Below, piece after piece: positions 2,091-28,823 of a DNA stretch of 42,776 nt (position 1 is its first letter; each line of letters begins with the position of its first letter). Origin of the DNA: Ignavibacteria bacterium (lineage in GTDB: Bacteria; Bacteroidota; Ignavibacteria; Ignavibacteriales; Melioribacteraceae); NCBI GenBank assembly GCA_012719345.1, contig JAAYAN010000144.1, positions 1 to 42,776 of the forward strand, given 5' to 3'. The notes below the pieces were generated by a model. The model did not search any database. It was not told the origin of the DNA and worked only from the letters and a program-made list of their open reading frames with translations. A program made the translations under genes and the position numbers.

Positions 2091-2103
2091 TTTTTACCTT
2101 TTC

Positions 2104-2616: not shown

Positions 2617-2628
2617 ACAATATCCTCC

Positions 2629-3432: not shown

Positions 3433-3467
3433 ATTATTTATCTGCTTTTACTGGTTTAATGTCTAAT

Positions 3468-3488
3468 TCTCCGACGCTTGCGTCGAGA
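3468..3488. repeat. short GC-rich palindrome with GCTTGC core
   Basis: The arms CGACGC and GCGTCG flank a TT and are extended outward by TCT/AGA with one bulged base. It lies in the only sizeable gap of the sugar operon. A second palindrome with the same GCTTGC core lies 40 bases away. It could be a REP-like element or a processing/terminating hairpin. Confidence 0.6.
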
Positions 3489-3518
3489 GTTACAACTTTT
3501 TGTAAAAGAGACTATCAA

Positions 3519-4865: not shown

Positions 4866-5778
4866 TGTATATGCTGCCTTTATTTATTAAATAATGTTCA
4901 ATTCTGTCGGCAAGTTGAAGTCCCGTAAATCCTTCATTGGCAAGCACATCTTTAAGAAGTGCTGGTTTAAACCAACGGTTTTTTAGGGCAATTCCTTCAA
5001 GATCGGTTGAAAGTTTATTTTTTGCAATAAACTCGCATAATATTGAATACAAGCCGCCCTTTTTAAGGTGATCTTCAATTGTAATCAAAACAGGTGTTTC
5101 AAAAATTGCTTTAAAAATTATTTCATCATCAAAAGGTTTGAGAGTGCGGAGATTGATTAATCTGGCATTTATACCTCTTTCGGATAACAATTCCGAAGCT
5201 ATAAAAGCTTCTCGTACCATCATTCCATAGCTTAAAATTGTTAAATCATTGCCTTCTGTAACCAATTCTGCCTGTCCAAGTTCAAATGGTTTGTGTTCAA
5301 ATAATGCAGGTAGATTATTATACCTTATATAAACAGGCTTATTATAATCAAAGATTTTTGGAAGGCATTCAATCATATCGTTTTCATCCGAAGGGCAGAA
5401 TATTTTCATTTTGGGTATTCCTCTCATTAAAGAAATATCTTCTATTGCCTGATGTGTCGGTCCGTTTGCTTCCGATAAAAATCCGGCAAAACTTCCAACA
5501 AGCTTAACGGGCAATTGACCAATTCCAATATCTGTACGGATAAACTCAAAAGCGCGCATAGTTAAAAACGATGCCAATGCATGTGTTATTGGGATTCTTC
5601 CACGTAACGCAAGTCCGGCGGAAATGCCTACCATAGTTTGTTCCGTTATTCCGGTATCAATAAATCTGTTACCTAAAATTTTCGGAAGATTGCGAATTGC
5701 TGCTCGGTTTTCGGCAGTGAGAATGATGAATTTATCGTCAGATAAAGTTATCTGTGTTAATAGTTCTTCGTAATTCAT
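4852..5778 (-). CDS. transketolase-like, C-terminal subunit (pyrimidine-binding and C domains)
   Basis: This 308-residue protein corresponds to the second half of a transketolase. DTGITEQ at 41-47 holds the glutamate (E46) that activates thiamine diphosphate in the family, followed by an SAGLALRG segment. The C-terminal transketolase domain follows after about residue 175. Its start is 1 base after the stop of the N-terminal half, so the pair should form one two-chain enzyme with active sites at the interface. Full-length housekeeping transketolase is about 660 residues in one chain. Split forms are common in biosynthetic clusters. It would move a two-carbon ketol unit between sugars, or act as a related ThDP lyase. 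Its place inside the nonulosonate-like operon suggests a dedicated role in building the sugar skeleton. Confidence 0.87.
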   Translation of the reverse strand: MNYEELLTQITLSDDKFIILTAENRAAIRNLPKILGNRFIDTGITEQTMVGISAGLALRGRIPITHALASFLTMRAFEFIRTDIGIGQLPVKLVGSFAGFLSEANGPTHQAIEDISLMRGIPKMKIFCPSDENDMIECLPKIFDYNKPVYIRYNNLPALFEHKPFELGQAELVTEGNDLTILSYGMMVREAFIASELLSERGINARLINLRTLKPFDDEIIFKAIFETPVLITIEDHLKKGGLYSILCEFIAKNKLSTDLEGIALKNRWFKPALLKDVLANEGFTGLQLADRIEHYLINKGSIYNERS

Positions 5779-5779
5779 A

Positions 5780-6637
5780 TTATCTAGCTATAATTGTTTC
5801 GGAACTTAGTTGTGTTTTATCGCCGCCTTTTAATTCAACAAGTAAATCTTCAATTTCTTCGTGTGTGAATTTGCAAAACCATCTGTCAGCCCTTTCTTCA
5901 ATGCTTGGCAAACCTTTTCCGCGGATAGTATCGGCAATAATAGCAGACGGCTTATGTGAGTTAAAATCTAAAGAATTAAATGCATTATTTATTTCAACAA
6001 AACTATGACCATCAATTCTTTGAACATTGCATCCGAAAGCTTTAAATTTATCAGCAAGTGGTTCAAGCGGTATAAGTTCTTCGGTTCTTTCATTTGCCTG
6101 AAATTTATTTCTGTCAACTACAATTATCAAATTATCCAGTTTATATGCCGAAGCAACAAGCAATCCTTCCCAAATTGAACCTTCGTTAAGCTCGCCATCT
6201 CCGAGAATTACAATTATTTTGTTGGTAAAACCTTTTATTTTACAGTCGATTGCTACACCCATTGCTACTGAAAGCAAATGCCCGAGTGAGCCAGAATGGA
6301 ATTCAACTCCCGGTATTTTTCTGTTGGGATGCCAATATATGTGGTCGTTGGTTTTCAAATGGTTTAGCAAACGCGATTTTTCAAACCAGCCAAGTTCCGT
6401 AAACATAGAATAAAGAGAAGGCACATCGTGCCCTTTCGAAAGAAAAAGATAATTTCTTTCCGGATTGTTTAGTTGCTGAATTTCCAGATTGAGAAAGACT
6501 TTATACAAATAGACAATTAATTCTACACAGGAAAGTGAAGCCCCTATAAAACAGCCGCCCCCGGCAGTAAGTTTTATAATTTCTTCTCTTACATTTTGTG
6601 CAGTTCTATGCAACGATGTTATTTCTTCTTTTTTCAT
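5780..6637 (-). CDS. transketolase-like, N-terminal subunit (ThDP diphosphate-binding)
   Basis: The protein has 285 residues, matching a transketolase N-terminal domain. The ThDP/metal signature begins with GDG at 146-148 and ends with the asparagine N177 in VDRNKFQ, the spacing expected of the GDG-x(about 27)-N motif. SKGHDVPSLY (67-76) and HSGSLGHLLS (114-123) carry the histidines that touch the cofactor and substrate phosphates in transketolases. The start codon lies inside the end of the cytidylyltransferase gene, a 32-base overlap, and the stop is 1 base from the partner subunit, so translation is likely coupled. Substrate unknown. Confidence 0.88.
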   Translation of the reverse strand: MKKEEITSLHRTAQNVREEIIKLTAGGGCFIGASLSCVELIVYLYKVFLNLEIQQLNNPERNYLFLSKGHDVPSLYSMFTELGWFEKSRLLNHLKTNDHIYWHPNRKIPGVEFHSGSLGHLLSVAMGVAIDCKIKGFTNKIIVILGDGELNEGSIWEGLLVASAYKLDNLIIVVDRNKFQANERTEELIPLEPLADKFKAFGCNVQRIDGHSFVEINNAFNSLDFNSHKPSAIIADTIRGKGLPSIEERADRWFCKFTHEEIEDLLVELKGGDKTQLSSETIIAR

Positions 6638-7445
6638 ATTGGGATACGTGTTTTTTTCTTAAATAATCTTCAATGTTTTTAATTTCGGAAATGTGATTGT
6701 CGTACCAGTAGGATCCGCAAAACTGTTTGTTAATACTTGATATTTCAGGTTTATTATCTAATAATCTCAAAATCTCTTCTAATCGGAAAATTTTAGAGAC
6801 AGGATATAATTCTTCGAATACCCTTTTAATAAAAAGATAATCCTCGTAGTAATCTATTGTAAATCTATGACTCAACGAATAATCCAATCCGGTTTCCCAT
6901 TCAACATTGCCTATTTTGAATTTTGACGGATTTTCCCACATATACGGTGTGGTATGTTCACGCTGATAGTTTTTAAAAGCTTCCAGCCAGCTTCTTTCCA
7001 GAGCTTCCATCGACATTACTTCAACATCATTCCCATCGGGGAAAGTAGCAGGATGAAGATTGCTAACAAAATCGAATTTACGATAGCATGCTTCGTAGTA
7101 TCTTATTACCTTGTCAATTATCCGCGGATCAATAAGAGGACAGTCCGATGGAATTTTGACGATTGCATCGGCATAATATTTTATTCCAACCTGAAAATGT
7201 CTGTCCAATAAATCTGTTGGATTTCCCCTGTAAAAATCAATTCCCCTAGATGCACACAACTCAGCAATTGCATCATCTTCTTTATCTGTGGTAGTAGCAA
7301 CAACAATTCTCCCCACTTTTTTTGTTGAAGAAACTCTTTCAATCATTCTTATCAGCAAAGGTTCATCCAGTAAAGGGAGTAAAACTTTTCCTTTTAATCT
7401 TGTTGATAACATTCGAGCTTGAATAACAGTTACTATATTTAACAT
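6606..7445 (-). CDS. SpsF/NeuA-type cytidylyltransferase (CMP-sugar activation)
   Basis: The 279-residue protein opens with TVIQARMLSTRLKGKVL, the nucleotide-binding signature of the SpsF/CMP-sugar synthetase branch of GT-A nucleotidyltransferases. R11, R16 and K20 are at the expected positions. SDCPLIDP follows at about 99-106 and is the metal-binding region. Family members activate keto-acid sugars with CTP, releasing pyrophosphate. In this operon the natural substrate is the product of the NeuB-type synthase. The long C-terminal half after residue 200 has no feature that I recognise. The gene begins 1 base after the GT-B gene ends. SpsF homologues are often poorly characterised, so CTP specificity is inferred. 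Confidence 0.83.
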   Translation of the reverse strand: MLNIVTVIQARMLSTRLKGKVLLPLLDEPLLIRMIERVSSTKKVGRIVVATTTDKEDDAIAELCASRGIDFYRGNPTDLLDRHFQVGIKYYADAIVKIPSDCPLIDPRIIDKVIRYYEACYRKFDFVSNLHPATFPDGNDVEVMSMEALERSWLEAFKNYQREHTTPYMWENPSKFKIGNVEWETGLDYSLSHRFTIDYYEDYLFIKRVFEELYPVSKIFRLEEILRLLDNKPEISSINKQFCGSYWYDNHISEIKNIEDYLRKKHVSQYEKRRNNIVA

Positions 7446-7446
7446 A

Positions 7447-8487
7447 TTAAATAATTCCTTTAATAAAAATTGGTTTGGAATAACTTTTTGAATTTGGAAA
7501 AGATTCAGTTTTTCTTAATTTCACAATTTCACAATTTTCTAATAGTTGTTTCCCTTCTTCGGCAATTTTTTTCGATGAAATGCCACCGTTTTGTATCGGT
7601 AATAATTGCATAAGTTTATTTGTGTCGAAATCAGAATAGATTTTTTTCCCCAATGCCATTCCTATATAAACCACCGAAGAAAATCTGGTAAATAAAATAC
7701 TGCAATTAGCAATCATCGGATTAATATCGCAATTGAAATAAATTAAAGAGCCGGGAGCGTATTTATTAATTTCGGCTTTTGCCCGGGTTACATTTTCATT
7801 TGGATGAAGTTTAAAAATTATTTGTTTTCCGTCAGCTATTTTTAATGCTTTCCGGATAAACTTTTTTCTATTTTCGTATTTGAATGTTTCGCGGGAATCG
7901 GAAGTTGCTACAAGAACATAATCTTTATAAGGAAAATTGTTTTGTAAGTATTTTTCTGCATCATCAAAATTTGGAATGCCGGTAACAGCAATTTTCTCTC
8001 TTTTTACGCCTTTACTAACAAAAAAATTCTCATAGCCTTCGGATGCTACGCAAAAACGATTATACATATCAGAAAGTCCGTTTGTTGATGTGCTGGCAAA
8101 AAAACGGGGTAATCCCAAAATTCTTACAAAATAATACATAAAATTTTCCGGGTCCGTCATCCCTTCTTGAACAAGAATTACAGGTTTATTTTGAATGTTT
8201 TTTGGAACTATTAAATCAGAGCAGGTATAAATTAAATCGTAATCATTATATTTTCCCTGATAGTCAATTAAAAGATAATTTTTTACAAGATAATCTGTTG
8301 TCTGCCTGAAAAATTCTCCGCCTAAAATAGAAAAATTAAGAAATCCTGCTTTCCTGAGCAATTCCAAAAATCCATCTGTATAGAACTGCGAAAAGTAACA
8401 TTCGTATTCTTTTTCCAAATGCTGCGAAATTTTATGCATCATAATAGTCTGATTAAGCGAACCGCATATAAAAAGTATTTTTTTCAT
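7447..8487 (-). CDS. GT-B glycosyltransferase-like protein with polysialyltransferase-type motifs
   Basis: This 346-residue protein opens with KKILFICGSLN, as GT-B enzymes do. It carries QEG at 107-109, IIFKLHPNEN with H228-P229, and FSS at 269-271. In bacterial sialyl- and polysialyltransferases (GT38/GT52-like) and related CDP-glycerol transferases, a [D/E][D/E]G motif, an HP motif and a serine pair bind the CMP-sugar. The same order is seen here, with Q for the first acidic residue. I therefore infer that it may use the CMP-sugar made by the next genes. It is the first gene of the minus-strand operon, 1 base from the cytidylyltransferase. No signal peptide or membrane helix is seen, so it is probably cytoplasmic. 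The acceptor is unknown. Confidence 0.6.
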   Translation of the reverse strand: MKKILFICGSLNQTIMMHKISQHLEKEYECYFSQFYTDGFLELLRKAGFLNFSILGGEFFRQTTDYLVKNYLLIDYQGKYNDYDLIYTCSDLIVPKNIQNKPVILVQEGMTDPENFMYYFVRILGLPRFFASTSTNGLSDMYNRFCVASEGYENFFVSKGVKREKIAVTGIPNFDDAEKYLQNNFPYKDYVLVATSDSRETFKYENRKKFIRKALKIADGKQIIFKLHPNENVTRAKAEINKYAPGSLIYFNCDINPMIANCSILFTRFSSVVYIGMALGKKIYSDFDTNKLMQLLPIQNGGISSKKIAEEGKQLLENCEIVKLRKTESFPNSKSYSKPIFIKGII

Positions 8488-16083: not shown

Positions 16084-16818
16084 TCAAAATAATTTTCTTC
16101 CTATATTTTTCTCCGTCTCAAATTTTAACACAATACATTTTAGTATGTATGTGATAATTTCCTTAGGAATGCTTGTTTTTCCAAGTTCGGTTTTAATTGT
16201 TTCAAAAGGGTTTTTTTCAAAACTTTTAAGAATTTTTTTATCGGAAAGCCATTTTTCGGACTCTGTAACAATTACATTATTTCCAAAATCAATCAAACCT
16301 GTGCCGGTGTTATGTCCTGCATAAGTGAGGTCATATTTGGGAAGATCGATTGCTTTCCAGACAGCTTTCATTTCGGGACAAAGAAAAATATCATCTAAAA
16401 TTAGAATACCTTTATATCCGATATTTAAAAGATGAACAATAAAATTTGCTTCGTAAATGCCATCATGTGCTGTATCCAGCAGAATAAGTGATGCATCAAT
16501 CAATCTTTTATCTTCAGCAGCATTCCCAATATTTAATTCAATATTGCTTATCGGCATTAAAAGTTCGCATTGATTTAAAATATCGTAACTTATAATTTTA
16601 TTGGTTTTATTAACCGAAAGCGCCAAAGCCGAACTTCCGTGGTGAGTGCCGATATCGAAAATAACAGCGTTGTTAAGAAGACTTGATATATATGCAAGCA
16701 GTTTGTAATGTTCTCCCTGAGGGTAAACAAGAAAATTCTTTGTATGGCTGCTTGAAGTTTTTTCCAGAAGCGAAGTAAGATCGATAAAGTTTACTTTATC
16801 AAGTTCAAGCTTAATCAT
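16084..16818 (-). CDS. class I SAM-dependent methyltransferase (Methyltransf_24-like)
   Basis: The 244-residue protein has the SAM-binding motif I as FDIGTHHGSSALALS (D55), an acidic end of the second strand in SYDILN, and a motif IV-like LLDTAHDG and LILDDIFL pair. These match O-methyltransferases of the Methyltransf_24 type. Its ATG overlaps the stop of the double glycosyltransferase gene by 4 bases, so the two proteins are coupled. I infer that it methylates a glycan or sugar precursor used in flagellin modification. The C-terminal 60 residues have no feature that I recognise. Confidence 0.72.
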   Translation of the reverse strand: MIKLELDKVNFIDLTSLLEKTSSSHTKNFLVYPQGEHYKLLAYISSLLNNAVIFDIGTHHGSSALALSVNKTNKIISYDILNQCELLMPISNIELNIGNAAEDKRLIDASLILLDTAHDGIYEANFIVHLLNIGYKGILILDDIFLCPEMKAVWKAIDLPKYDLTYAGHNTGTGLIDFGNNVIVTESEKWLSDKKILKSFEKNPFETIKTELGKTSIPKEIITYILKCIVLKFETEKNIGRKLF

Positions 16819-18812
16819 TTTCTATCTTCAATTATTTTTAAATTGTCTGAGGCAGGTTCAAAGTCCGGATCAATTTCCAGAGCTTTTTGCAAATATTCTT
16901 TTGCTGTTTTAATATTATTTTTAAGAATTGATACAACTCCAAGATTTGTAAGCACGTGCTTATCTCCGGGATAATGCTCGTTAATCTCAGCAAATATTTT
17001 TAATGCAATATCAAGATTATTTAATTCAATCAGCTGTTCGCCTTTTTCGAATGCTAGTTTTTTCCATTCGCTTATTAAAATCTCCTTCCCGTTTTTTTTG
17101 CCGTAATCATTCCATTTTTTAAAGAACAATTTTTTGTTGCGTTCAAGTATCTGTCCGGAAGTTTCTTTTTTATCATAATATTCAATTTCGCGATATGCTC
17201 TTATTGAGCCGCTCCAATGATGTTCGTATTCCGTAACAGGAATTATATAACTTTTCAGTCCGGCTTTTTTTATTTGGAGACCAATATCCCATTCTTCAAA
17301 GTAACAGGGGGTGAATGAGTTTTCAAATTTTAAAGTCCCGCTGTTAAAGTATTTCGTTTTTACTGCGAAGAAAAACCCAGAAACCGCATCAACAACAGCA
17401 GGAGCATCAAAAACCCCTTTGTCGTAATAGATTAAATCTTTTGCCTGTTCGAAATTGAACATCGATCCCTGCGGACCAGCCATAGCTGCATCGGGAAGTT
17501 CTATTAATCCGTTTTCAATTTTTTCAACAGCTTCTTTCGTAATGTGCAAATCGGCATTGCAGATAAAAGTAACAGGCGTTTGAGAAATATTCAAACCGAT
17601 ATTCCAGGCACGGGCAACCCCAACGTTTTTATTCATTACCGCGTAATAATCAATCCGCGGATGATTTTTCATCTCTTCGGCAACTTTTTCGCTGTTGAAA
17701 ACAATTATTACATTTCCTTCGATGTTTTCAAAATCGGCTAGAAGAGTTTTAATATTTAAATTGCTCGCGGGCGAATAATCGAGTACGGGAATAACAAAAC
17801 TTCTTTTCAATTTATTAACTTGCTGCGATGAAATTTTAATATTATTAATTGAACGTTTTCTCCATTCTTCCGGCGAAGGAGTTTCTTTTATTTTTTTATT
17901 CAGGATTTTAAAAATTTCATCTGTGCGGTGTTTATAAGTATGAGCATTGTGAATAATTTCATTTCCGCGGCTTGCAATTGCTTCGCGCAATTCGTCATTT
18001 TCAAGATAAAATTCTGCTTTGCCCGAAATGTATTTGTCGGAATAAACTGCAAGGTCTTCTCCGTCAACAAACATAACTTCCTGACCCGAATTTAAAGCAT
18101 TGTCAGTCAGCAGAAAGGTTCCAGTGCTCATTACTTCAAAAAGCCGCATATTAAGGTCATTTCGGATTGAATTGTTAAAAATAATTTTAGAATCGGTAAA
18201 AACCTGCGACATTTCTTTCCAGAAACAACGCTTATTAAAGACCGAAAATTTTTCGGAAAGCAAATCGATTAAAGCAGTCCGCCGGGGGTTGTTTATCATC
18301 GAACCGACAAAACCGATATCGTATTTCTTTAATCTTTTTTCACCCGAATGAATTTCGGCATCGCATCCGAGAGGCAGCCAGTGTACATTTTTATTTCCTG
18401 CTTTCCGGAAATCATCAAGATATTCCTTTTGTGCAATGAAAACGTGATCGAAATTTTTTGCCCATTCAATGTGCCATTTTAGATTAAGATGGCTGTCAAT
18501 TAAATAGCAAATTTTAGGGATTGGCAAATTCGAAATATTCTTAGGGAAATATCCATAAACCGATTCAATCCAGAAAAATAGTTCGGGTTTATCTTCCGTA
18601 TTATTAAACACTTCAAGAATATCCGGTTCGGCATCAAGCGGAATATTATGCGGAATTACAGGAAGATTCATATTCTCAAGCTTCCAAGCTTTAATAAGTT
18701 CCTGTGAAATGGAAGGTCCGCAGGTTGTAACCTGGTGATCGTTTTTTAGTGCTCTTTCAAAATAAACTGCAGTTGTAACGGGATAAGAAACATTAGCAAG
18801 CCAGATGTGCAT
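16815..18812 (-). CDS. double glycosyltransferase: CgeB-like GT-B + GT2 + TPR tail
   Basis: The 665-residue protein joins three parts. Residues 1-310 are a GT-B domain of the CgeB/GT1-like type, with GFVGSMINNPRR and the nucleotide-sugar loop RLFEVMSTGTFLLTDN. Residues 330-570 are a GT2 (GT-A) domain with FVIPVLDYS, NVGVARAWNIG, the DxD-like NADLHI and an EEWDIGLQIKKAG acceptor region. Residues 590-655 carry TPR-like helices (LDIALKIFAEINEHYPGDKHVLTNLG and a following repeat), split at their boundary. It can therefore add two sugars, with TPRs possibly docking a protein. It is divergent from the triple TPR-glycosyltransferase and is followed by the methyltransferase. A sigma-54-like promoter lies just upstream. 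No membrane helix is seen; a cytoplasmic role in flagellin glycan building is inferred. Confidence 0.8.
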   Translation of the reverse strand: MHIWLANVSYPVTTAVYFERALKNDHQVTTCGPSISQELIKAWKLENMNLPVIPHNIPLDAEPDILEVFNNTEDKPELFFWIESVYGYFPKNISNLPIPKICYLIDSHLNLKWHIEWAKNFDHVFIAQKEYLDDFRKAGNKNVHWLPLGCDAEIHSGEKRLKKYDIGFVGSMINNPRRTALIDLLSEKFSVFNKRCFWKEMSQVFTDSKIIFNNSIRNDLNMRLFEVMSTGTFLLTDNALNSGQEVMFVDGEDLAVYSDKYISGKAEFYLENDELREAIASRGNEIIHNAHTYKHRTDEIFKILNKKIKETPSPEEWRKRSINNIKISSQQVNKLKRSFVIPVLDYSPASNLNIKTLLADFENIEGNVIIVFNSEKVAEEMKNHPRIDYYAVMNKNVGVARAWNIGLNISQTPVTFICNADLHITKEAVEKIENGLIELPDAAMAGPQGSMFNFEQAKDLIYYDKGVFDAPAVVDAVSGFFFAVKTKYFNSGTLKFENSFTPCYFEEWDIGLQIKKAGLKSYIIPVTEYEHHWSGSIRAYREIEYYDKKETSGQILERNKKLFFKKWNDYGKKNGKEILISEWKKLAFEKGEQLIELNNLDIALKIFAEINEHYPGDKHVLTNLGVVSILKNNIKTAKEYLQKALEIDPDFEPASDNLKIIEDRK

Positions 18813-19059: not shown

Positions 19060-19090
19060 TAAAATATCATTCTAATAATACTGGTTTAAT

Positions 19091-22000
19091 TTGCAGAATA
19101 TACTCGAAAAAGCCGAAGCCCTTTACAAATCGGGGGATATAAGTGCTGCCGAAAAAGAATATTTACGGATTATTGAGCAAGATGGAAATTTTTATTCCGC
19201 TCAGTTTAATTTGGGAATATTATATTTTAATTCCGGCAAGCCCGAAAAAGCATTAGAGTGTTTCGATAAGTGCATAAAAGGCGGATTTGCTAATGCATCG
19301 GTTTATAATTATATAGGGATAATCCTTCAAAACAGCGGTGAAGTAGCTCTTTCTGTATCTTATTTTAATGCGGCACTAAACATTGAACCGGAAAACATTC
19401 TGATTTTAAATAACATTTCATTGTCATATTTTCTTATCGGTAGAGAAAACGATGCATTGGAATGCTTGCAAAAAGCATTAAAAATTGCTCCGGATGATTA
19501 CGAAACTTATTATAATCTGGGCTTCATTTATTTTAAAATTAACCAGCTTGAAAAAGCGGAAGAACAATATCTTAAAGTATTAAAAATAAATCCGGCACAT
19601 AAAGCGGCAAAATGGAATTTGGGAGAAATATATTTATCAAGAGAAATTCATGAAAAAGCCGAAATTATTTTCAATGAAATTTATAATGATGATAAAAATA
19701 ATTACGAGGCAAAATACAACTTGGCGGTGTCCCTTCAAAAACAAAAAAAGTATATCGAGGCTTTAATAATTTATGACGAATTAAATAATGATAAAAAACT
19801 TGCCGGAAAGGCGTTCTTCAATTCGGGAAATATTTTCAAAGAGAAAAAGGAAAACGGGAAAGCAGAAGAATGTTACACAAAAGCCTTGAAGTATGATTCC
19901 GGAAATTGCGAGCTTTGGAATAACCTTGGTCTGGTGCAGATAGAAACATTTGAATACGGCAAAGCAGAAGCTTCTTTCAGAAATGCATTAAATCTAAAAC
20001 CTTTTTACACAGATGCGATTTCGAATCTTGCCGCATTGTTTTACGAAATGGAAAAGCCGGATGAGGCAATAAAATTTTACAATTCCGCCATCGAAATTTC
20101 TTCGGAGAACGATTTGCATTTTAACAAAGCTTTAGCGCTTCTGGCAAAAGGAAATTTTGAAGAAGGTTTTGCCGAATACGAATACCGTAATTCGAAATTG
20201 AAAAATGATGCACGTTATAAAAAAATATGGATGGGCGAAAGTCTTGAAAACAAACGCATTATTGTTGCCGATGAGCAGGGAATTGGTGACGTTATTCAGT
20301 TTTTGCGTTTTCTTAAAGAACTAAAGTTACGCGGAGCGCACGTAATTTTCCATTGCCGGAAATCACTTATAAAGTTTACTGAAAGAATCGAATGGATTGA
20401 CGAAACAGTTAATTTGCAAGAAGAATACGGCAATTACGATTTTGCAGTATCTTTGCTAAGTCTGCCGTATCTTCTTAAAATTAATGAAGAAAATATCCCG
20501 TGTGATATTCCTTATATAAAATATGACGAAATAAATAAATTCGAACAGTTTATTAAAAAGTATAACGGATTAAAAATAGGGATTGCCTGGAAAGGAAATC
20601 CTGAACATAAATTCGATTACAAGCGGTCATTTAGAATCCAAAAATTTGAAACTATTGCAAATATTGAAGGAGTTATTATTTTCAGTCTTCAGCTATCCCT
20701 TTCTGAAGAAGAAAAGTGGTTTCTTGAACAAAATAATATAATTCAGCTTTTTGAAAAGGATGAGGCATTCGAAAACACTATAAGTCTGATAAAAGTTCTC
20801 GATCTTATAATTACTGTTGATACATCAATTGCGCATCTGGCGGGAGCAATGGGCAAAAAAGTGTGGACGCTCCTTCCTTTTGCCGCCGACTGGCGATGGA
20901 AATTTTGCGTGGAAAATTCATTATGGTATCCTTCAATGCATTTATTCAGGCAGAAAAAACCGGGCAGCTGGGATGAAGTTTTTAAAAAAATATCGGCTGA
21001 ACTGCAGAAAATTATTCCTCAAAAAAGAAACTATGATGAAGAATATCTGGTAATAAAACTTAAAGCTTTCGAAAACCACGAAGCTGGAAATCTTGACGAA
21101 GCCGAAAAATATTATGCAGCATTACTTAGGAAAAATCCCTGCGATCCGGAAATACTATACTGGCTGGCAGTTTTGAAAAATTCGCAGAACAAAACAGATG
21201 AAGCCGAAAAACATTTAAGCTTGCTGATTAATAAAAACCCTTCCTTCAGTGAAGAAAGCTACATTCACTTATGCAGTATTTTTATCCGCCGGAAAGAAGA
21301 AAAAAACGCTGAAAAATATTACTTAAAAGGGATTGCCTTATTTCCCGGTTCTTATAAATTATTGAACGATTACGGAGTTTTTCTTGCGGGCATAGGAAAA
21401 AGCGATGAAGCTGCCGGATATTTTGAACAAGCTATAAAAATAAATCCTCTTTTTACAGAAGCAATTTTTAATGCAGCAGCCGAAGCCGAAAAAAAATGCG
21501 ACTACAGCAAAGCTGAAAAATATTATTTAAAGGTTTTAGAAATAATTTCCACCGATTTTAATGCGTTAACAAATCTTGCAAATTTGAAATTAAAGACTAA
21601 GAAGTTTATGGAGGCAGAAGAATATTATAAAAAAGCATTATCAGTTAAGAATGATTTTAATGCAAATAATAATCTGGGGTTTGCACTTCAGCGCCAAAAT
21701 AAACTTGATGAAGCCGAACATTTTTTTTTAAGGGCTTTAGAAATTACTCCTGCATACGGTGTTTATTACAATCTGGGGAATAATTTTTATTTAAATGGAA
21801 AATTTAAGGAAGCTCAGGATTATTATCTGAAATCTTTAGAAATTAACGCAGATTACCGTGAAGCAAAAGTAGCCTTGAGTTTCATACAATTAAGCATGAA
21901 GAATTTTAAAGAAGGATGGAAAAATTTTAAATATTCTTTATTTCCTAACCTCTTAACAGAAAAAGCCGGAATTAAAAAATGGGAAGGTGAAGATCTGAAC

Positions 22001-24253
22001 GGGAAAACTCTTTTGGTATATTCCGAACAGGGTTTGGGCGATAATATTCATTTTGCGCGGTATATTCATTACGCTAAAAAAGCGGGAGCAAAAATAAAAT
22101 TTTTATGCGATAAAAACCTTGCTGATTTAATCAGCAATCCGGAATATGCTGAATTTATTCACGAAATAGAAAATCCCGGTGAAATAGATTTCTGCTGTTC
22201 GCTGCTTGAGCTTCCTTCTTTTCTCTTCGATTTAGGAGTTGATGATCATAGTCTGGTAAAATATATAAAAACAGATTCTGGCAAATCTGAAAATAACATT
22301 ATAAACTTCCCTGATGAAAAAATTAAAATCGGATTTGTATGGAAAGGTAATCCGAATCATCAGTTTGATGCTTTCCGTTCTGCAGAATTAGAAAATTTTC
22401 TTACACTTTTCGAATTAGAAAATGCTTGTTTTTATTCTTTACAAATAACTGATGAAGAAGAAATAAAAATACTTTCGCAAAAAAACAGCAACGTATTTAC
22501 AATAAACTTTAAAGGTAAAAATTTTACAGAATTTGTAAGTAAGCTCGATTTAATAATTACGGTAGATACAATGATGGCGCACTTTGCCGGAACGCTTGGC
22601 AAACCGGTCTGGATTCTTCTTGCAAAGGTATGCGACTGGCGCTGGGGTATGGAAGGCAGCGAATCTTATCTTTATCCTTCGGCAAAATTATTCAGGCAGA
22701 AAGAACTTGGAAATTGGGAACCCATTTTTAAGGAGATAAAAGAAAATTTATTAAAACTTACAAACAGCAGCGAAAATTTAGTAAGAACCGAACAAGAAAT
22801 ACTGGCAGAAGCCCATAAACTGATTGAACAAAAAGAATATGCAAAAGCCGAAGCTTTGCTAAAAGATGCTGCTCTGCATTTTCCCCATTCCGAAGAAGTA
22901 TATCTCCTTTCGGGATATTTTTATCAAATCTGTGAAAATCTTCACGATGCGCTTAACTCATATCTAAATATAATAAAGATTAATCCCTCGAACCATATAG
23001 CTTATTCAAATATGGGAGTTGTTTTAAAAGATCTTAAAAGATTTGATGAAGCGGAAAAAAGTTTAAGCATTGCAATAAAAATTAATGATTCAAATGCGAT
23101 TGCATATAACAATATGGCTATTATTAGCCATCTGAAAGGAGATTTCGAAAAATCGCGTGGCTGTCTTGAAAAAGCCTTGGCACTCAATCCTTTTTATCAC
23201 GAAGCATATATAAATCTTTCCAATTATTACGATACTGCCGGAGACATGACGAAAGCTTTGGAAAGCATTGAAAAAGCCATTGAAATAACTCCGCATTCAG
23301 CCGATGCGCATTTTAATAAATCGGTAATTCTTCTTAAAGAAGGATATGATTTGGAAGGCTGGAAAGAATACGAATGGAGAAAGAAAAAAGCTGAATATCA
23401 GAAAAGAAACTTCAGCATACCGGAACTTATAAGTACAGATGTTTACGGGAAAACAATACTTGTTTACGACGAACAGGGATATGGCGATACAATACAATTT
23501 GCCAGATATATTGAATTTCTTAAGCAAAGAGGAGCAAAGGTAATATTAGAATGCCATAAATCGCTGGTAAGGCTTATGAAAAGCTGCAAAGGTATTGCTG
23601 AAGTTTACAGCCGGGGAGAACTAAAGGAAAAAGAATTTAAATTTGATAATCAAACAGCGCTTTTAAGTCTTCCATTGCTTCTTTACAGAGAGGTCTCCGA
23701 AATTCCTGCCAATGTTCCTTATTTAGAAGCAAATGAAAGACCGGATTTATTCTGGCACGAAAATTATTCATTTAAATCTGCTTATAAAATCGGAATTTTT
23801 TGGCGCGGAAAGCAACCGGTAACAAATTTACAGCGCGCAGCAAATTTGAAGTTCTTTGAACATATTGCAAAAATGGAAAACGTTAAAATTTTCAGTCTGC
23901 AAAAAGAAGGCATCACAAAAGAAGAAAACGAAATGATGACTGAGTTTGGAATTAATGACCTTTCGCCCCAACTCGGAGACTTTAGTGATACCGCATCGAT
24001 AATTAAGGCATTAGATCTTGTAATTACTATTGATACTTCTGTTGCCCATCTTTCCGGCGCTTTGGGTGTAAAAACCTGGACAATTCTATCGAAAAGAGCA
24101 GACTGGCGCTGGTACCGTAAAATAGATTACAGTCCTTGGTATCCTTCAATGAAATTATTCCGCCAAGAAAATTATAACGATTGGAAGACAGTATTTGAGA
24201 AAATTAGTAAAAAATTAAACACAGAGTTATTAAACCATAATAAAAGGAGTTAA
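19091..24253 (+). CDS. giant flagellin glycosyltransferase candidate: three TPR + GT9-like modules (FlmG-like)
   Basis: This 1720-residue soluble protein contains three consecutive units, each a run of TPRs followed by a GT-B domain related to heptosyltransferases. TPR runs lie at about 1-365, 655-935 and 1235-1400. Each GT domain repeats the same landmarks: EQGxGD (395-400, 979-984, 1461-1466), a WKGNP/WRGK strand, DTxxAH (D577/H582, D1159/H1164, D1648/H1653) and DWRW (600, 1182, 1671). TPR + GT of this kind is the layout of FlmG, the soluble flagellin glycosyltransferase of Caulobacter, whose TPRs bind flagellin; FlmG has one unit. Modules are diverged but none has lost these motifs. The start is a TTG without a clear ribosome site. 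The final codons contain the AGGAG that serves flagellin 1, whose ATG is 3 bases after the stop. Confidence 0.85.
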   Translation: MQNILEKAEALYKSGDISAAEKEYLRIIEQDGNFYSAQFNLGILYFNSGKPEKALECFDKCIKGGFANASVYNYIGIILQNSGEVALSVSYFNAALNIEPENILILNNISLSYFLIGRENDALECLQKALKIAPDDYETYYNLGFIYFKINQLEKAEEQYLKVLKINPAHKAAKWNLGEIYLSREIHEKAEIIFNEIYNDDKNNYEAKYNLAVSLQKQKKYIEALIIYDELNNDKKLAGKAFFNSGNIFKEKKENGKAEECYTKALKYDSGNCELWNNLGLVQIETFEYGKAEASFRNALNLKPFYTDAISNLAALFYEMEKPDEAIKFYNSAIEISSENDLHFNKALALLAKGNFEEGFAEYEYRNSKLKNDARYKKIWMGESLENKRIIVADEQGIGDVIQFLRFLKELKLRGAHVIFHCRKSLIKFTERIEWIDETVNLQEEYGNYDFAVSLLSLPYLLKINEENIPCDIPYIKYDEINKFEQFIKKYNGLKIGIAWKGNPEHKFDYKRSFRIQKFETIANIEGVIIFSLQLSLSEEEKWFLEQNNIIQLFEKDEAFENTISLIKVLDLIITVDTSIAHLAGAMGKKVWTLLPFAADWRWKFCVENSLWYPSMHLFRQKKPGSWDEVFKKISAELQKIIPQKRNYDEEYLVIKLKAFENHEAGNLDEAEKYYAALLRKNPCDPEILYWLAVLKNSQNKTDEAEKHLSLLINKNPSFSEESYIHLCSIFIRRKEEKNAEKYYLKGIALFPGSYKLLNDYGVFLAGIGKSDEAAGYFEQAIKINPLFTEAIFNAAAEAEKKCDYSKAEKYYLKVLEIISTDFNALTNLANLKLKTKKFMEAEEYYKKALSVKNDFNANNNLGFALQRQNKLDEAEHFFLRALEITPAYGVYYNLGNNFYLNGKFKEAQDYYLKSLEINADYREAKVALSFIQLSMKNFKEGWKNFKYSLFPNLLTEKAGIKKWEGEDLNGKTLLVYSEQGLGDNIHFARYIHYAKKAGAKIKFLCDKNLADLISNPEYAEFIHEIENPGEIDFCCSLLELPSFLFDLGVDDHSLVKYIKTDSGKSENNIINFPDEKIKIGFVWKGNPNHQFDAFRSAELENFLTLFELENACFYSLQITDEEEIKILSQKNSNVFTINFKGKNFTEFVSKLDLIITVDTMMAHFAGTLGKPVWILLAKVCDWRWGMEGSESYLYPSAKLFRQKELGNWEPIFKEIKENLLKLTNSSENLVRTEQEILAEAHKLIEQKEYAKAEALLKDAALHFPHSEEVYLLSGYFYQICENLHDALNSYLNIIKINPSNHIAYSNMGVVLKDLKRFDEAEKSLSIAIKINDSNAIAYNNMAIISHLKGDFEKSRGCLEKALALNPFYHEAYINLSNYYDTAGDMTKALESIEKAIEITPHSADAHFNKSVILLKEGYDLEGWKEYEWRKKKAEYQKRNFSIPELISTDVYGKTILVYDEQGYGDTIQFARYIEFLKQRGAKVILECHKSLVRLMKSCKGIAEVYSRGELKEKEFKFDNQTALLSLPLLLYREVSEIPANVPYLEANERPDLFWHENYSFKSAYKIGIFWRGKQPVTNLQRAANLKFFEHIAKMENVKIFSLQKEGITKEENEMMTEFGINDLSPQLGDFSDTASIIKALDLVITIDTSVAHLSGALGVKTWTILSKRADWRWYRKIDYSPWYPSMKLFRQENYNDWKTVFEKISKKLNTELLNHNKRS

Positions 24254-24256
24254 AAA

Positions 24257-25123
24257 ATGGGATTCAGAGTAAACACAAACACGGACGCACTTCAGGCATA
24301 TTACCAGCTGGCTAAGGTAAACGCCGAGACTACAAAGGCACAATTAAGACTTTCATCAGGAAAAAGAATATTAAACGTAGGAGATGATACATCGGGCTTT
24401 AACGTAGGTACCTCATTAAAAGGAAAAGTAGCCGTAATGAAAGGTGCCCAGAACAATATCGCATCAGCAAAAAATCTTTTAGCTACAGCCGAAGGAGCTT
24501 TGCTCGGTATGAATGATCTTCTTACCAAAATCGAAGGTAAATTATCCGATGCAACAAACCCGACAGCCGACAGAACAGCTTTGCAGGAAGACATACGTGC
24601 TCTTTCGGCAGAAATTCATAACATCCTGCTGAATACAAAATTCAACGATTCAAAAATATTGTTTTCTGCTGCAGGTCAAGGTTACGCATTCCAGGTTGGT
24701 GAATCGACCGATACATTATTAATAGATTATGCATCAACTCTTTCAAGTACCGGTCAGGGAGGTTATGGAGATAACATTTCGGTAAGCATAAGCAGTTTTC
24801 AGAATGTATCGGCAACTACTCTTATGAGTACAAGTGGTACCGAATCGGTACAGGGTTTGCAAACAGCATTAGTTAATTTAAAATCGGCAGTTGCCGGAGC
24901 TCTTGGTAAAATTGGTAACTTCTCACAGCGTCTTGATATTAAAGATGAAACATTAAATGTTGCAATTGCAAATGCCGAATCAACTATCAGCCGCTTATTT
25001 GATGCGGATATGGCTATGGAACAGCTTAAAGCAACAAGAGGTTCTATTCTTGCTCAGGCAGGCACAGCAATGTTAGCTCAGCTTAATGCTTCTCCTCAGC
25101 AAGTGCTGCAGTTATTCCAGTAA
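24257..25123 (+). CDS. fliC: flagellin 1
   Basis: This is a short flagellin of 288 residues with only the conserved D0/D1 helices. The N-terminal AQLRLSSGKR (32-41) and C-terminal SRLFDADMAMEQ and AGTAMLAQLNASPQQVLQLF are flagellin hallmarks. A serine/threonine-rich central part (about 165-205, including VSATTLMSTSGTES) is surface-exposed in such flagellins and a natural place for O-glycans. AAAGGAG, nine bases ahead of the ATG, lies inside the end of the glycosyltransferase gene, so the two are coupled. I see no sigma-28 promoter directly upstream, unlike flagellin 2. The FliS-like chaperone gene follows 37 bases later. The protein is exported by the flagellar apparatus and has no signal peptide. 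Confidence 0.96.
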   Translation: MGFRVNTNTDALQAYYQLAKVNAETTKAQLRLSSGKRILNVGDDTSGFNVGTSLKGKVAVMKGAQNNIASAKNLLATAEGALLGMNDLLTKIEGKLSDATNPTADRTALQEDIRALSAEIHNILLNTKFNDSKILFSAAGQGYAFQVGESTDTLLIDYASTLSSTGQGGYGDNISVSISSFQNVSATTLMSTSGTESVQGLQTALVNLKSAVAGALGKIGNFSQRLDIKDETLNVAIANAESTISRLFDADMAMEQLKATRGSILAQAGTAMLAQLNASPQQVLQLFQ

Positions 25124-25160: not shown

Positions 25161-25505
25161 ATGATTACGGCGCAAAGTGTAAGAAAAAGAAGAGCAAATT
25201 CTTATCTGGTTAAGGAAATTCTGGAAGCAAGTCCGCAAAAACTTATTCTAAAGATATACGATTTTGCCATTGCCAATTGCCAGCGCAAAGATATGGTTAA
25301 AACAAACAAGGCAGTTTCGGAACTTATAATTTCACTTAATTTTGAAAAAGATGAGACTAAGCCTATATCTATGCAGTTATTAAGATTATATCAGTTTGTG
25401 CAAGACCAGACCCGCAAAGGCGAGTTTGATATTGCTTTGCAAATATTAAGCGGATTGCGTACAACCTGGCAGGAAGCTTTTGAAAAAGAAGGACTGAAGT
25501 TATGA
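25161..25505 (+). CDS. fliS: FliS-like flagellin chaperone 1
   Basis: The 114-residue helical protein has the FliS pattern of a YLVKEILEASPQKLILKIYDF start, followed by a helical bundle and no membrane part. FliS binds the C-terminal helix of flagellin in the cytoplasm and delivers it to the export gate. A paralogue of the same size follows flagellin 2. Pairing of each flagellin with its own chaperone suggests a tandem duplication of the flagellin-fliS unit. It is basic at its N-terminus (RKRRANS). Confidence 0.83.
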   Translation: MITAQSVRKRRANSYLVKEILEASPQKLILKIYDFAIANCQRKDMVKTNKAVSELIISLNFEKDETKPISMQLLRLYQFVQDQTRKGEFDIALQILSGLRTTWQEAFEKEGLKL

Positions 25506-25704: not shown

Positions 25705-25726
25705 GATCAAGCATGGAAGCTTGATC
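25705..25726 (+). promoter_or_regulatory. 5'-UTR hairpin ahead of flagellin 2
   Basis: Perfect 8-base arms GATCAAGC and GCTTGATC enclose ATGGAA. The hairpin lies between the predicted sigma-28 start and the AAGGAGG ribosome site. No T-run follows, so a terminator is unlikely; mRNA stabilisation or a protein-binding site is more plausible. Confidence 0.65.
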
Positions 25727-25756
25727 AAAACAACAACATATACAAGGAGGTATAAA

Positions 25757-26623
25757 ATGGGATTCCGCGTAAACACAAACACGGACGCACTGCAAGCTTA
25801 CTATCAGTTAGCTAAAGTGAATCAAGAAACAACAAAAGCACAGCTAAGATTATCATCTGGCAAAAGAATTCTAAATGTCGGTGATGACACTTCCGGCTTT
25901 AACGTAGGTACTGCTATGAAAGGAAAAGTAGCTGTAATGGAAGGAGCACAAGGCAACATAGCTTCGGCTAAAAACTTGTTATCCACTGCAGAAGGAGCTT
26001 TGTCAGGAATGAATGACCTTTTAACAAAAATCGAAGGAAAACTTTCTGACGCAACAAACCCTACAGCAGACAGAACAGCTCTTCAGGATGACGTAAAAGC
26101 ACTGGCAAATGAAATTCAGTCAATATTGCTGAATACCAAATTCAACGACGCTAAAATTCTTTATTCAGGCGCCGGACAAGGATTTGCATTCCAGGTTGGC
26201 GAGTCAACTGATACCTTAAATCTTGATTTTGCATCATCATTAGCTAGCACTGGCGGCGGCGGATATGGCGCTAACGTTTCTGTAAGTCTTGGAAGCTTTG
26301 CAAATGTATCGGCTACTACACTTATGAGCACCAGCGGTGCTGCATCAGTGCAGGGTCTTCAGACAGCTCTTACAAATCTTAAGACAGCAGTTACTTCGGC
26401 ATTAGGAAAAATTGGTAACTTCTCACAAAGACTGGACATTAAAGACGAGAATTTGAGTGTTGCTAAATCGAATGCAGAAGCTACTATCAGCAGATTGTTC
26501 GACGCTGACATGGCTATGGAACAATTGAAAGCTACAAGAGGGTCAATCTTACAGCAGGCTGGTACTGCTATGTTGGCTCAGCTTAACTTTGCTCCTCAGC
26601 AAGTATTGCAGTTATTTGGATAA
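25757..26623 (+). CDS. fliC: flagellin 2
   Basis: This 288-residue flagellin aligns with flagellin 1 over its whole length without gaps and is almost identical at the N-terminus. I start it at the ATG at 25757, because AAGGAGG lies 6 bases ahead and the protein then begins MGFRVNTNT exactly like its paralogue; an earlier in-frame ATG at 25721 would add 12 residues and falls inside the leader hairpin. The central region again is rich in serine and threonine. It has its own sigma-28-like promoter, a leader hairpin and a strong terminator, the usual dress of the main filament protein. I infer that it is the major flagellin. Confidence 0.97.
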   Translation: MGFRVNTNTDALQAYYQLAKVNQETTKAQLRLSSGKRILNVGDDTSGFNVGTAMKGKVAVMEGAQGNIASAKNLLSTAEGALSGMNDLLTKIEGKLSDATNPTADRTALQDDVKALANEIQSILLNTKFNDAKILYSGAGQGFAFQVGESTDTLNLDFASSLASTGGGGYGANVSVSLGSFANVSATTLMSTSGAASVQGLQTALTNLKTAVTSALGKIGNFSQRLDIKDENLSVAKSNAEATISRLFDADMAMEQLKATRGSILQQAGTAMLAQLNFAPQQVLQLFG

Positions 26624-26701: not shown

Positions 26702-27049
26702 ATGTATCAAACCTCTACATACTTTAGATCGGCAAATCGTGCAAACACTTATCTTGCAAAAGAAATTATCGAGGCAACTCCTCAGAAATTGCTTATTAAA
26801 GTTTACGATTTTGCTATTGCAAATTGTAAAAGAGGAAATATGGCAAAAACAAACCGGGCTCTAACAGAACTTATTAACGCTTTAAATTTTGAAGATGAAA
26901 AAGCAAAAGAAATATCAACCGGTTTGATGAGGCTTTATCAATTTTGCCAGGATGAAATGCGGAAAAACAATACTGATATAGTATATAAAATACTTACTGA
27001 TCTTCGGGAAACCTGGATAACTATTTTTAACAGACAACCGGAAAAGTAA
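26702..27049 (+). CDS. fliS: FliS-like flagellin chaperone 2
   Basis: A 115-residue paralogue of the chaperone after flagellin 1, with the same ANTYLAKEIIEATPQKLLIKVYDFAI opening (broken here as ANTYLAKEIIEATPQK, then LLIKVYDFAI) and a helical body. It should bind flagellin before export. The gene lies behind the flagellin 2 terminator and ends 1 base before fliD. No separate promoter is evident in the 25 bases between terminator and start, so expression probably depends on read-through. Confidence 0.85.
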   Translation: MYQTSTYFRSANRANTYLAKEIIEATPQKLLIKVYDFAIANCKRGNMAKTNRALTELINALNFEDEKAKEISTGLMRLYQFCQDEMRKNNTDIVYKILTDLRETWITIFNRQPEK

Positions 27050-27050
27050 A

Positions 27051-28823
27051 ATGTCACAGATATTAAGTACATCGTATATAACTCAGCTTATTGATAATTA
27101 TAAGTACAATGAGCAAGTTAAGCAAGTTAATCCTATTACTGTACGTAAATCCAAGTACAGTAATCTTTCTTTAACTTGGAATTCCCTTAAAACAAAACTT
27201 AGTTCTTTCAGTACTGTTTTAAGCGATATGAAATCTACTTCTTCGAGTTCGCTTTTTAATACTAAAAAAGCAACTCTTTCAAGTTCGGATTTCTTTACAG
27301 CAAGTGCAGAAAAGACTGCTTCAATAAATAATTATGAGATGCGCGTATTACAGCTTGCAAAAAACGATCTGCTTGTTTCTGATACTATGGTTTCGGGTAC
27401 CTCGGTAACAACTTTAGCCGGAAATCATACATTTTCAGTATCAAGCGGAAATTATTCTGCAAATGTTGACGTTGAATTAACGGCTTCCGAAACTAATTCT
27501 TCCATTATGACGAAAATTGCCTCGGCAATAAATAACAGCAAAGCAACCATAAATTCATCTACTTTCGATGCAAATTCTACTTTTACAGGAGCAGGTCAAT
27601 TTAAGATTGTTATTGGCGACACTCAGAACTCGGAAGATGTTGTAACCAGTACCATTTCTTACGATTATCAGAACAAGACTTACAGTGAAATTATGGAAGA
27701 TTTGGTTTCGCAGCTTAGTTTAATAAACGGGGTGCAGGCAGAAAAAGTGATTGACGGTTCGAATGTAGGAATAAAAATTACCGGAAAAAATTCTGCAAAA
27801 TATATTTCTATGCAAGCAGCTAACGATACAGGAGGTTTGCTTTCGAACCTTAATATTGATGCCGAAAAAGTAATAGGTGCATCGGGACTTGCAACAAGTG
27901 CTATTTTTTCGCCTTCAACAGGCAGTTCAAAAATCTCATTTTCAGCTAAAAACAGCGGTTACGATAATAGGCTGGTGCTTTCAGATGTTACAGGCAGCGC
28001 TCTTTCATCAATTGGTTTATCAAGTGTAATTCTTGCAAATAGAACAATTGCAGCTGATGATAATACCGCTGGATATAAATACAGTGCAGAAAGTTCTACA
28101 AATAATGAACTCAACTCGAAAATGGTATTTAACGGTATCAATATCCAGAGGAATTCCAACAGTTTCAGTGACCTGATAACTGGTGTTACGTTTAATTTAA
28201 AAGCTGTTATGGATGAGGAAGACCAAAGCGTAAGTATGAATATTACTAATGATGTTGATACTGTAAAAACAAAAATAGAAAGTTTTATAAAATCTTTTAA
28301 CGAATCATATTCATTTATACGGGCAAACCAGACTGCCGGAGCAAATACAACAAGAGGTGTTTTTACCGGAGACTCTACTGCAAATTCTCTCAAATCGAAA
28401 CTGCAAAGCGCTGTTCTTCAATCAGTTACAGGGTTATCTGCAGGAAATGTTACCAGGCTTGCGGATATAGGAGTTACTTTCGACCCCGAAACAGGGCTTT
28501 CAATGTCAGATACAGCAAAATTGACCGAACAGATTAATAAAGATCCCGATCAGGTAGCTGAATTGTTTAATTCCAACAACGGAATTGCGCAGACGCTTTA
28601 TTCAACATTGGAAACATATTTGGGTCCCGATGGAACAATTTCGCGCTTGACTGACTCGCTTGATAACAATGCAAATTATTTGAAAGACAGAATTGATGGT
28701 ATCAATAAGCGGATTGATAAAGGTGCCGAAGTCTTAAGATCTAAATACGAAGCTCTTCAGATGCAGCTTGCAACTTTAATGACGTCTTATAATAATATGT
28801 CTTCAATGTTCGGCAGTTACTGA
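27051..28823 (+). CDS. fliD: flagellar filament cap protein FliD
   Basis: The 590-residue protein has the FliD layout. The N-terminal helical region includes SYITQLIDNYKYNE and a serine-rich SSFSTVLSDMKSTSSSSLF. A large beta-rich middle follows, and the C-terminal FliD_C part contains RLADIGVTFDPETGLSMSD and a coiled coil ending KYEALQMQLATLMTSYNNMSSMF. The cap pentamer at the filament tip folds incoming flagellin. The gene starts 1 base after fliS and is followed by a small FliT-like gene, the common fliS-fliD-fliT order. Length is a little above the E. coli protein (about 470). Confidence 0.95.
   Translation: MSQILSTSYITQLIDNYKYNEQVKQVNPITVRKSKYSNLSLTWNSLKTKLSSFSTVLSDMKSTSSSSLFNTKKATLSSSDFFTASAEKTASINNYEMRVLQLAKNDLLVSDTMVSGTSVTTLAGNHTFSVSSGNYSANVDVELTASETNSSIMTKIASAINNSKATINSSTFDANSTFTGAGQFKIVIGDTQNSEDVVTSTISYDYQNKTYSEIMEDLVSQLSLINGVQAEKVIDGSNVGIKITGKNSAKYISMQAANDTGGLLSNLNIDAEKVIGASGLATSAIFSPSTGSSKISFSAKNSGYDNRLVLSDVTGSALSSIGLSSVILANRTIAADDNTAGYKYSAESSTNNELNSKMVFNGINIQRNSNSFSDLITGVTFNLKAVMDEEDQSVSMNITNDVDTVKTKIESFIKSFNESYSFIRANQTAGANTTRGVFTGDSTANSLKSKLQSAVLQSVTGLSAGNVTRLADIGVTFDPETGLSMSDTAKLTEQINKDPDQVAELFNSNNGIAQTLYSTLETYLGPDGTISRLTDSLDNNANYLKDRIDGINKRIDKGAEVLRSKYEALQMQLATLMTSYNNMSSMFGSY

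Follow-up and report, generated by a model that had tools for sequence, protein, structure and literature searches.

A conserved three-module protein of the FlmG type, a probable flagellin glycosyltransferase, with a distinct third module in Melioribacteraceae

In Caulobacter crescentus flagellin is modified by FlmG (CCNA_01524), a protein of 596 residues with one flagellin-binding TPR domain and one glycosyltransferase (GT) domain, as described in PMC7591256. According to that paper, the modification needs pseudaminic acid and NeuB, the flagellin FljK is modified at four threonines (a result cited there from another study), and the programming of specificity in O-linked protein glycosylation is called poorly understood. 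Judging by the locus numbers given there, flmH and flmG adjoin in Caulobacter (PMC7591256).

The DNA analysed here (the window) is a stretch of 42,776 nucleotides from an Ignavibacteria bacterium of the family Melioribacteraceae. Its preliminary description reported three fused TPR-GT modules in one protein of 1720 residues beside flagellin. This was borne out: the ORF is open, its modules are 32-41% identical, and the ORF of the first flagellin starts at 24257, three bases past the stop codon of the three-module ORF. The features of this ORF are as follows.

19091-24253, + strand: whole ORF, three-module TPR-glycosyltransferase, 1720 aa, TTG start (ORF list, Pfam, motifs)
19091-20131, + strand: TPR run 1, aa 1-347 (Pfam TPR; boundaries from module HMM)
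20132-21034, + strand: GT module 1, aa 348-648, predicted GT9-type, loop WKGNPEHKFDYKRS (module HMM, alignment, model)
20273-20290, + strand: EQGIGD of module 1, aligned with the GD motif of GT9 (motif scan, profile comparison)
20819-20836, + strand: DTSIAH of module 1, aligned with the D-T/S-x-x-x-H motif of GT9 (motif scan, profile comparison)
21035-21880, + strand: TPR run 2, aa 649-930 (Pfam TPR, module boundaries)
21881-22777, + strand: GT module 2, aa 931-1229, loop WKGNPNHQFDAFRS (module HMM, alignment)
22025-22042, + strand: EQGLGD of module 2 (motif scan)
22565-22582, + strand: DTMMAH of module 2 (motif scan)
22778-23323, + strand: TPR run 3, aa 1230-1411 (Pfam TPR, module boundaries)
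23324-24247, + strand: GT module 3, aa 1412-1719, separate clade (module HMM, tree, model)
23471-23488, + strand: EQGYGD of module 3 (motif scan)
23801-23836, + strand: variant loop WRGKQPVTNLQR of module 3, third-module signature in 9/9 orthologues (alignment, pattern search)
24032-24049, + strand: DTSVAH of module 3 (motif scan)

The reading frame opens at 19079, after the previous stop and just four codons upstream of the TTG, so a start further 5' is excluded. A motif scan of the 1720-residue ORF located EQGxGD at residues 395, 979 and 1461, DTxxAH at 577, 1159 and 1648, and DWRW at 600, 1182 and 1671. The distance from EQG to DT is 182, 180 and 187 residues in modules 1, 2 and 3, that from DT to DWRW is 23 in all three, and Pfam placed a TPR run before each GT module; scan and Pfam thus agree with the earlier statement that the three motifs recur three times at like spacing after TPR runs. 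In BLAST comparisons the three pairs of GT modules were 38%, 41% and 32% identical over about 300 residues, nearly their whole length (E 2e-57, 3e-58 and 1e-37), indicating that the modules are homologues and not chance resemblances. Along the gene, GC content is even, both overall and by codon position.

Structure prediction, which the preliminary description had named as a check, was carried out with AlphaFold2 for module 3 (aa 1227-1720, with TPR run 3; mean pLDDT 95.0, pTM 0.92) and module 1 (aa 167-648; mean pLDDT 94.9, pTM 0.91), and both models consisted of a TPR superhelix running into a GT-B domain. When the module 3 model was searched with Foldseek, ranks 1-8 were taken by plant SPY, followed by OGT, both matched over the whole TPR-GT length (E 4e-16), the TM score of SPY normalised to the model being 0.42-0.45 with an rmsd above 10. 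Among the matches covering the GT half of module 3, VIA-align ranked GT9 first, with 3tov (Z 19.1, rmsd 3.0, 255 residues aligned) and E. coli WaaF 1psw (Z 18.6, rmsd 3.2, 252 aligned), besides WaaC (Z 16.8-17.3) and TibC (Z 16.8-16.9). The order was the same for module 1 (3tov 18.2, WaaF 17.9, WaaC 16.8-17.4, TibC 16.6-16.7). On these models, both of high confidence, the GT-B domains predicted for modules 1 and 3 are closest to the GT9 heptosyltransferases.

At the level of sequence, the whole ORF matched Pfam Glyco_transf_9 with 50.5 bits against a cut-off of 22, a score summed over the three modules with a best stretch of 35 of 247 positions. No Maf family was among the best 25 of the 27 Pfam families matched by the ORF. 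When a module profile was compared by hhalign with seven GT9 proteins from the genome of the window and from relatives, the probability was 97.9 (E 5.7e-13), EQGxGD aligning with the GD motif of GT9 and DTxxAH with the D-T/S-x-x-x-H motif. (The 35-row module alignment used for the profile comparison and a search for solved relatives contains one row, L007, that still includes its TPR part.) Sequence and profile searches for a solved structure related to the modules gave chance matches alone, so the mapping of the motifs rests on the profile comparison and the fold. In WaaC, GD carries the catalytic aspartate and DTxxxH contacts the donor.

The other genes of the window that are relevant here are listed below.

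1200-8487, - strand: NeuB-type sugar-acid cluster with NeuB, HAD, SDR, aminotransferase III, split transketolase and CTP transferase (Pfam)
16815-18812, - strand: divergent GT4-GT2-TPR protein, 665 aa, candidate partner, homologue opposite the triple in 9/9 genomes (Pfam, neighbourhood comparison)
24257-25123, + strand: flagellin 1, 288 aa, likely acceptor (Flagellin_N/C)
25161-25505, + strand: FliS 1 (Pfam)
25721-26623, + strand: flagellin 2, likely acceptor, TTG start as listed, true start probably slightly downstream (ORF list, Pfam)
26702-27049, + strand: FliS 2 (Pfam)
27051-28823, + strand: FliD cap protein (Pfam)

Chemotaxis genes and FliF lie further downstream of FliD. The cluster at 1200-8487 is of unusual make-up: besides a NeuB of 296 residues, an HAD phosphatase, an SDR, a class III aminotransferase and a CTP transferase it contains a transketolase split into two genes, and a 346-residue protein with a weak Epimerase_2 hint alone.

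A scan of genomes for homologues returned 66 loci, the best of which was in a Melioribacteraceae MAG with the same triple. Among 79 genomes of this family, FlmG-type matches at E 1e-30 were found in 16, and the triple in nine, belonging to six genera and nine species; conservation of the triplication in relatives, proposed earlier as a check, was thus observed. The three-module ORF is intact in eight of the nine (frames of 1521-1724 aa) and split over two contigs in the ninth, G102. The other seven FlmG-positive genomes each gave a single match, in frames (407-1256 aa) that are partly cut by contig ends, and no two- or four-module form directly before flagellin was seen among the 79 genomes. 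The gene order divergent GT4-GT2-TPR gene, triple, flagellin, FliS was found in all nine triples; in G102 it was seen over two separate contigs. Two flagellins lie between triple and FliD in G000 (the window's genome), G012, G019 and G024, and one in G099 and G102, the contig ending before FliD in G026, G028 and G100. The number of modules does not follow the number of flagellins. As a separate observation, 13 flagellins of the nine triple genomes, including both in the window (24257-25123 and 25721-26623), closely resemble each other in the central region (FQVGESTDTL...ASTGxGGYG...), which mostly differs in the other genomes compared, the G043 flagellins being nearest by eye.

All nine triple genomes contain further FlmG-type modules elsewhere, eight of them having five or six modules in total and G026, where the second locus is cut by a contig end, four. 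The second group is directly beside the neighbourhood of the triple in G024 and about 8 kb away in G019. In the window's genome it consists of two single-module FlmG genes on contig C129, flanked by a GT2-TPR gene on one side and a methyltransferase-GT4 gene on the other. This second sugar-transfer cluster (L103) also includes a PGA_cap-methyltransferase protein of 1543 residues, GT2 and GT4 proteins and a TPR protein.

To relate the modules to each other, tree results were taken from a careful tree of 52 GT modules and not from the first, quick tree of 109. The trees hold six of the nine triples, G099, G100 and G102 being compared for loop and neighbours only. In the 52-row tree, whose rows were chosen by hand with omission of the very long module 2 of L113 and whose bootstrap had not settled, the six third modules formed one clade (100/99), and this clade joined 13 modules from single-type relatives (89/84, a value without a star). 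Placing the single-type modules beside module 1 rather than module 3 was 32 log units worse, a topology that was disfavoured, not rejected (p-AU 0.091). Neither the first modules of the six triples as one clade (p 0.379) nor the second modules as one clade (p 0.291) was rejected by the topology test. A recent tandem triplication in place was considered as well and discarded, since modules 1-3 of the window as one clade were rejected (p-AU 0.000135). Mean identity across the six orthologues is 47% for GT3, 43% for GT1 and 33.5% for GT2, module 2 being the fastest evolving of the three; the length of TPR run 3 is nearly constant (182-189), that of the other TPR runs is not.

The preliminary description had also stated that no module shows motif loss. 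This is true of EQGxGD, DTxxAH and DWRW, but module 3 is without the GNPxHxxDxxRS loop common to modules 1 and 2, which is replaced by WRGKQPVTNLQR, one residue shorter. The corresponding signature, W[ER]G[KR]xPxxNx[HQ]R, occurs in 9/9 third modules and in 0/158 other distinct full-length modules; like the other loop patterns, it was written after the sequences were seen. Commoner patterns (approximately WxG[N/S]xxxxxDxxR[S/T]) were found in 66 of the 167 distinct modules, and the remaining loops vary. This set omits modules shorter than 250 residues, loci listed as duplicates, and the module of G083, which lies in L132 about 3 kb from its flagellin and is absent from the ORF table, which skips stretches with runs of N. 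The near-invariant arginine of the loop is kept in the third modules. In the alignment the loop corresponds to the GAGxxxR stretch of GT9, and an effect of the altered loop on donor binding is therefore plausible; the difference could also be neutral. Module 3 is a separate old lineage, and the parts of the protein therefore probably do different jobs.

If three modules served to modify more residues, flagellins encoded beside them might be expected to be richer in acceptor residues, an idea that was tried and abandoned. The Ser/Thr content of the central region was compared in 61 flagellin ORFs (13 from triple genomes, 22 with single-type modules, 26 with none), a sample in which some genomes gave several rows (four from G043) or are near twins (G036 and G038), and which drew on 20 hand-picked FlmG-negative stretches. 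The medians were 19, 23 and 18.5, respectively. With kinship ignored, the triple value was below the single (p 0.024) and no different from none (p 0.29), and the single value was above none (p 0.0007).

In relatives the FlmG module is often joined to other enzymes. Fusion to a GT4 domain was found in 15 relatives (in G010 and G040 cut by the contig end), with a methyltransferase between FlmG and GT4 in at least two of them, L018 (= G097) and L129 (G098). In six of the nine triple genomes (G000, G012, G019, G024, G028 and G102) the extra FlmG modules are accompanied by homologues of the fused GT4 (52-57% identity), either as separate proteins or linked to a methyltransferase. The sequence stretches retrieved from G026, G099 and G100 showed no such GT4; of these three, G099 alone has a contig that stops immediately behind the modules. 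A 1325-residue FlmG-GT4-FlmG fusion, about 2 kb before flagellin, was noted at L021:10292-17376. A Nitrospirae locus carries FlaF, FlmG, GT4, FlmG, FlmG and flagellin as separate genes. In a Desulfuromonadaceae MAG (L005:9944-19027) an ORF of 2228 residues with six HMM pieces, corresponding to four full and two partial FlmG modules, lies directly before flagellin with FlbT and FlaF nearby. The Nitrospirae and Desulfuromonadaceae loci indicate that more than one lineage has several FlmG modules at a flagellin locus. A cyanobacterial ORF of 3142 residues (L004:9776-19201, Pseudanabaenaceae MAG) has five FlmG-type modules and a like GT4 tail.

The donor sugar was approached through co-occurrence. 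NeuB matches above 200 bits were present in 10 of 19 relatives with an FlmG-type module and in 25 of 39 without (Fisher p 0.57). Among the triple genomes NeuB was matched in five of nine, with no match at E 1e-20 in G026, G028, G100 and G102, whose completeness is 93%, 100%, 77% and 85%, respectively. NeuB was consequently dropped as a constant partner or donor marker of the triple. The cluster at 1200-8487 can therefore not be assigned as donor source, although it may possibly play this role in the window's own genome. An ADP-heptose gene (rfaE_dom_II) was found in 9/9 triple genomes and in 57 of 58 relatives, and is uninformative as a donor marker because it is nearly universal.

The reading to which we incline, if only by a little, is that the triple belongs to the FlmG kind, as a soluble O-glycosyltransferase dedicated to flagellin, and that its three TPR-GT modules divide the work among them and do not repeat it. 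The main ground for preferring a division of labour is the combination of the FlmG module with other sugar-adding and methylating domains; the fusions to GT4 and methyltransferase favour this over three identical reactions. That the central Ser/Thr content of triple-genome flagellins is lower than that of single-type ones counts against shared work. The TPR runs would retain freshly synthesised flagellin in the cytoplasm, like the TPR domain of Caulobacter FlmG. Module 3, whose lineage groups with single-module relatives, would be the core transferase, and the more loosely constrained modules 1 and 2 might add further residues, either atop the first sugar or at other Ser/Thr. The GT4-GT2-TPR protein, the (methyltransferase-)GT4 of the second cluster and its extra FlmG modules may act with modules 1 and 2, and the modified flagellin would then be handed to FliS and exported.

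The earlier suggestion that each module serves a different site or sugar fits the unequal modules better. The other suggestion made there, of like modules working processively, is not supported in that form, the modules of the window not being each other's closest relatives. In its general form, with a single kind of sugar attached to several Ser/Thr of one flagellin by three equivalent modules, whether through proximity or processively, we regard this alternative as rather unlikely. It agrees with the intact named motifs of all three modules and with the four modified threonines of FljK (cited from another study in PMC7591256), but it does not account for the separate lineage and own loop of module 3, for the difference in rate between the modules, with module 2 the fastest, or for the lack of a Ser/Thr excess in triple-genome flagellins.

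Still less probable, in our estimate, is a protein in which module 3 is the one core that works and modules 1 and 2 are now mainly a flagellin-holding scaffold or decaying copies. Module 2 does show the lowest conservation, and some relatives have substitutions at near-invariant positions (W to L in G028, WATS and EWRW in G026, DWKW in G024). However, in all three modules of the window the motifs compared have their near-invariant positions intact, conservation of module 1 (43%) comes close to that of module 3 (47%), and the module count is three in 9/9 genomes.

That the acceptor is another envelope or appendage protein and the flagellin neighbourhood coincidental appears very improbable. FlmG-type modules do occur with no flagellin seen nearby, as in the 3142-residue five-module cyanobacterial ORF. 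Against this, 9/9 triples adjoin flagellin, and among 58 relatives Flagellin_N was matched in 19/19 genomes with an FlmG-type match and in 23 of 39 without (Fisher p 0.0005). The FlmG-type matches counted here were of E 2e-51 or better, the next match being 1e-8; Flagellin_N probably also matches the hook-associated FlgL, so that single weak matches do not prove a filament. An assembly or annotation artefact, a collapsed or expanded repeat, can practically be dismissed: the draft genome is in 323 contigs, but identity between the modules is no more than 32-41%, and seven other genomes have this architecture as an intact ORF.

The shared-work reading can be extended, tentatively and with doubt outweighing confidence, to a glycan assembly line on one polypeptide. 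The three FlmG modules, non-equivalent and each provided with a separate TPR cradle, would add different residues to cytoplasmic flagellin in a fixed order, using a non-NeuB donor in at least part of the clade, and the glycan would be completed by TPR-bearing GT2/GT4 and methyltransferase-GT4 partners. If this were true, FlmG-GT4, FlmG-methyltransferase-GT4, FlmG-GT4-FlmG and the combination of five FlmG modules with GT4 would represent alternative line-ups of this sort. In a fused TPR-GT series with one recognisably different module, swapping or inactivating modules would separate the choice of site from the choice of sugar. Judging by co-occurrence, a tie of the FlmG module to NeuB-made sugars does not seem to hold throughout, and its regular combination with other sugar-adding and methylating domains is of use for the glyco-engineering of proteins without lipid carriers.

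The modules share with the GT9 enzymes WaaF and WaaC and with the protein heptosyltransferase TibC the fold (Z 16.6-19.1) and the GD and D-T/S-x-x-x-H motifs; unlike them they carry TPR runs, which are absent from the matched part, and identity is low (6-17%). OGT and SPINDLY, the GT41 family, are protein O-glycosyltransferases in which, as in module 3, a TPR superhelix leads into a GT-B domain. Their likeness over the whole length is limited (TM 0.42-0.45 for SPY, rmsd above 10), the GT half of module 3 fits GT9 better, and OGT and SPINDLY are not known to carry more than one GT domain per protein. The TPR-FlmG-GT4 and TPR-FlmG-methyltransferase-GT4 proteins of relatives contain the same module as the triple, mostly in a flagellin neighbourhood, but have one FlmG module and a second GT fold in place of two further FlmG modules. 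The L005 protein resembles the triple in having several FlmG modules directly before flagellin; it comes from another phylum and has more modules.

No multi-module FlmG was described in the titles and abstract beginnings among the matches listed, in a body of literature with few subscription journals and preprints. A search with the window's protein retrieved a Rhodospirillales locus (L034:5237-11761) with flagellin, FlbT, a GNAT acetyltransferase and a TPR-GT protein of 659 residues, which resembles the FlmH-FlmG layout of Caulobacter. Judged from this locus and from the description of FlmG, the likeness lies in the N-terminal TPR run, the C-terminal GT-B domain and the link with flagellin, and the comparison with FlmG made in the preliminary description holds in that TPR and GT-B stand next to flagellin in 9/9 triples. 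FlmG, as described there, has one module in 596 residues and depends on NeuB, whereas the window protein has three modules and is not tied to NeuB. With 1720 residues and three modules instead of one module of about 600 residues, the protein is therefore not a plain member of the FlmG group, and represents a real, conserved multi-module variant of the FlmG type with a clearly distinct third module.
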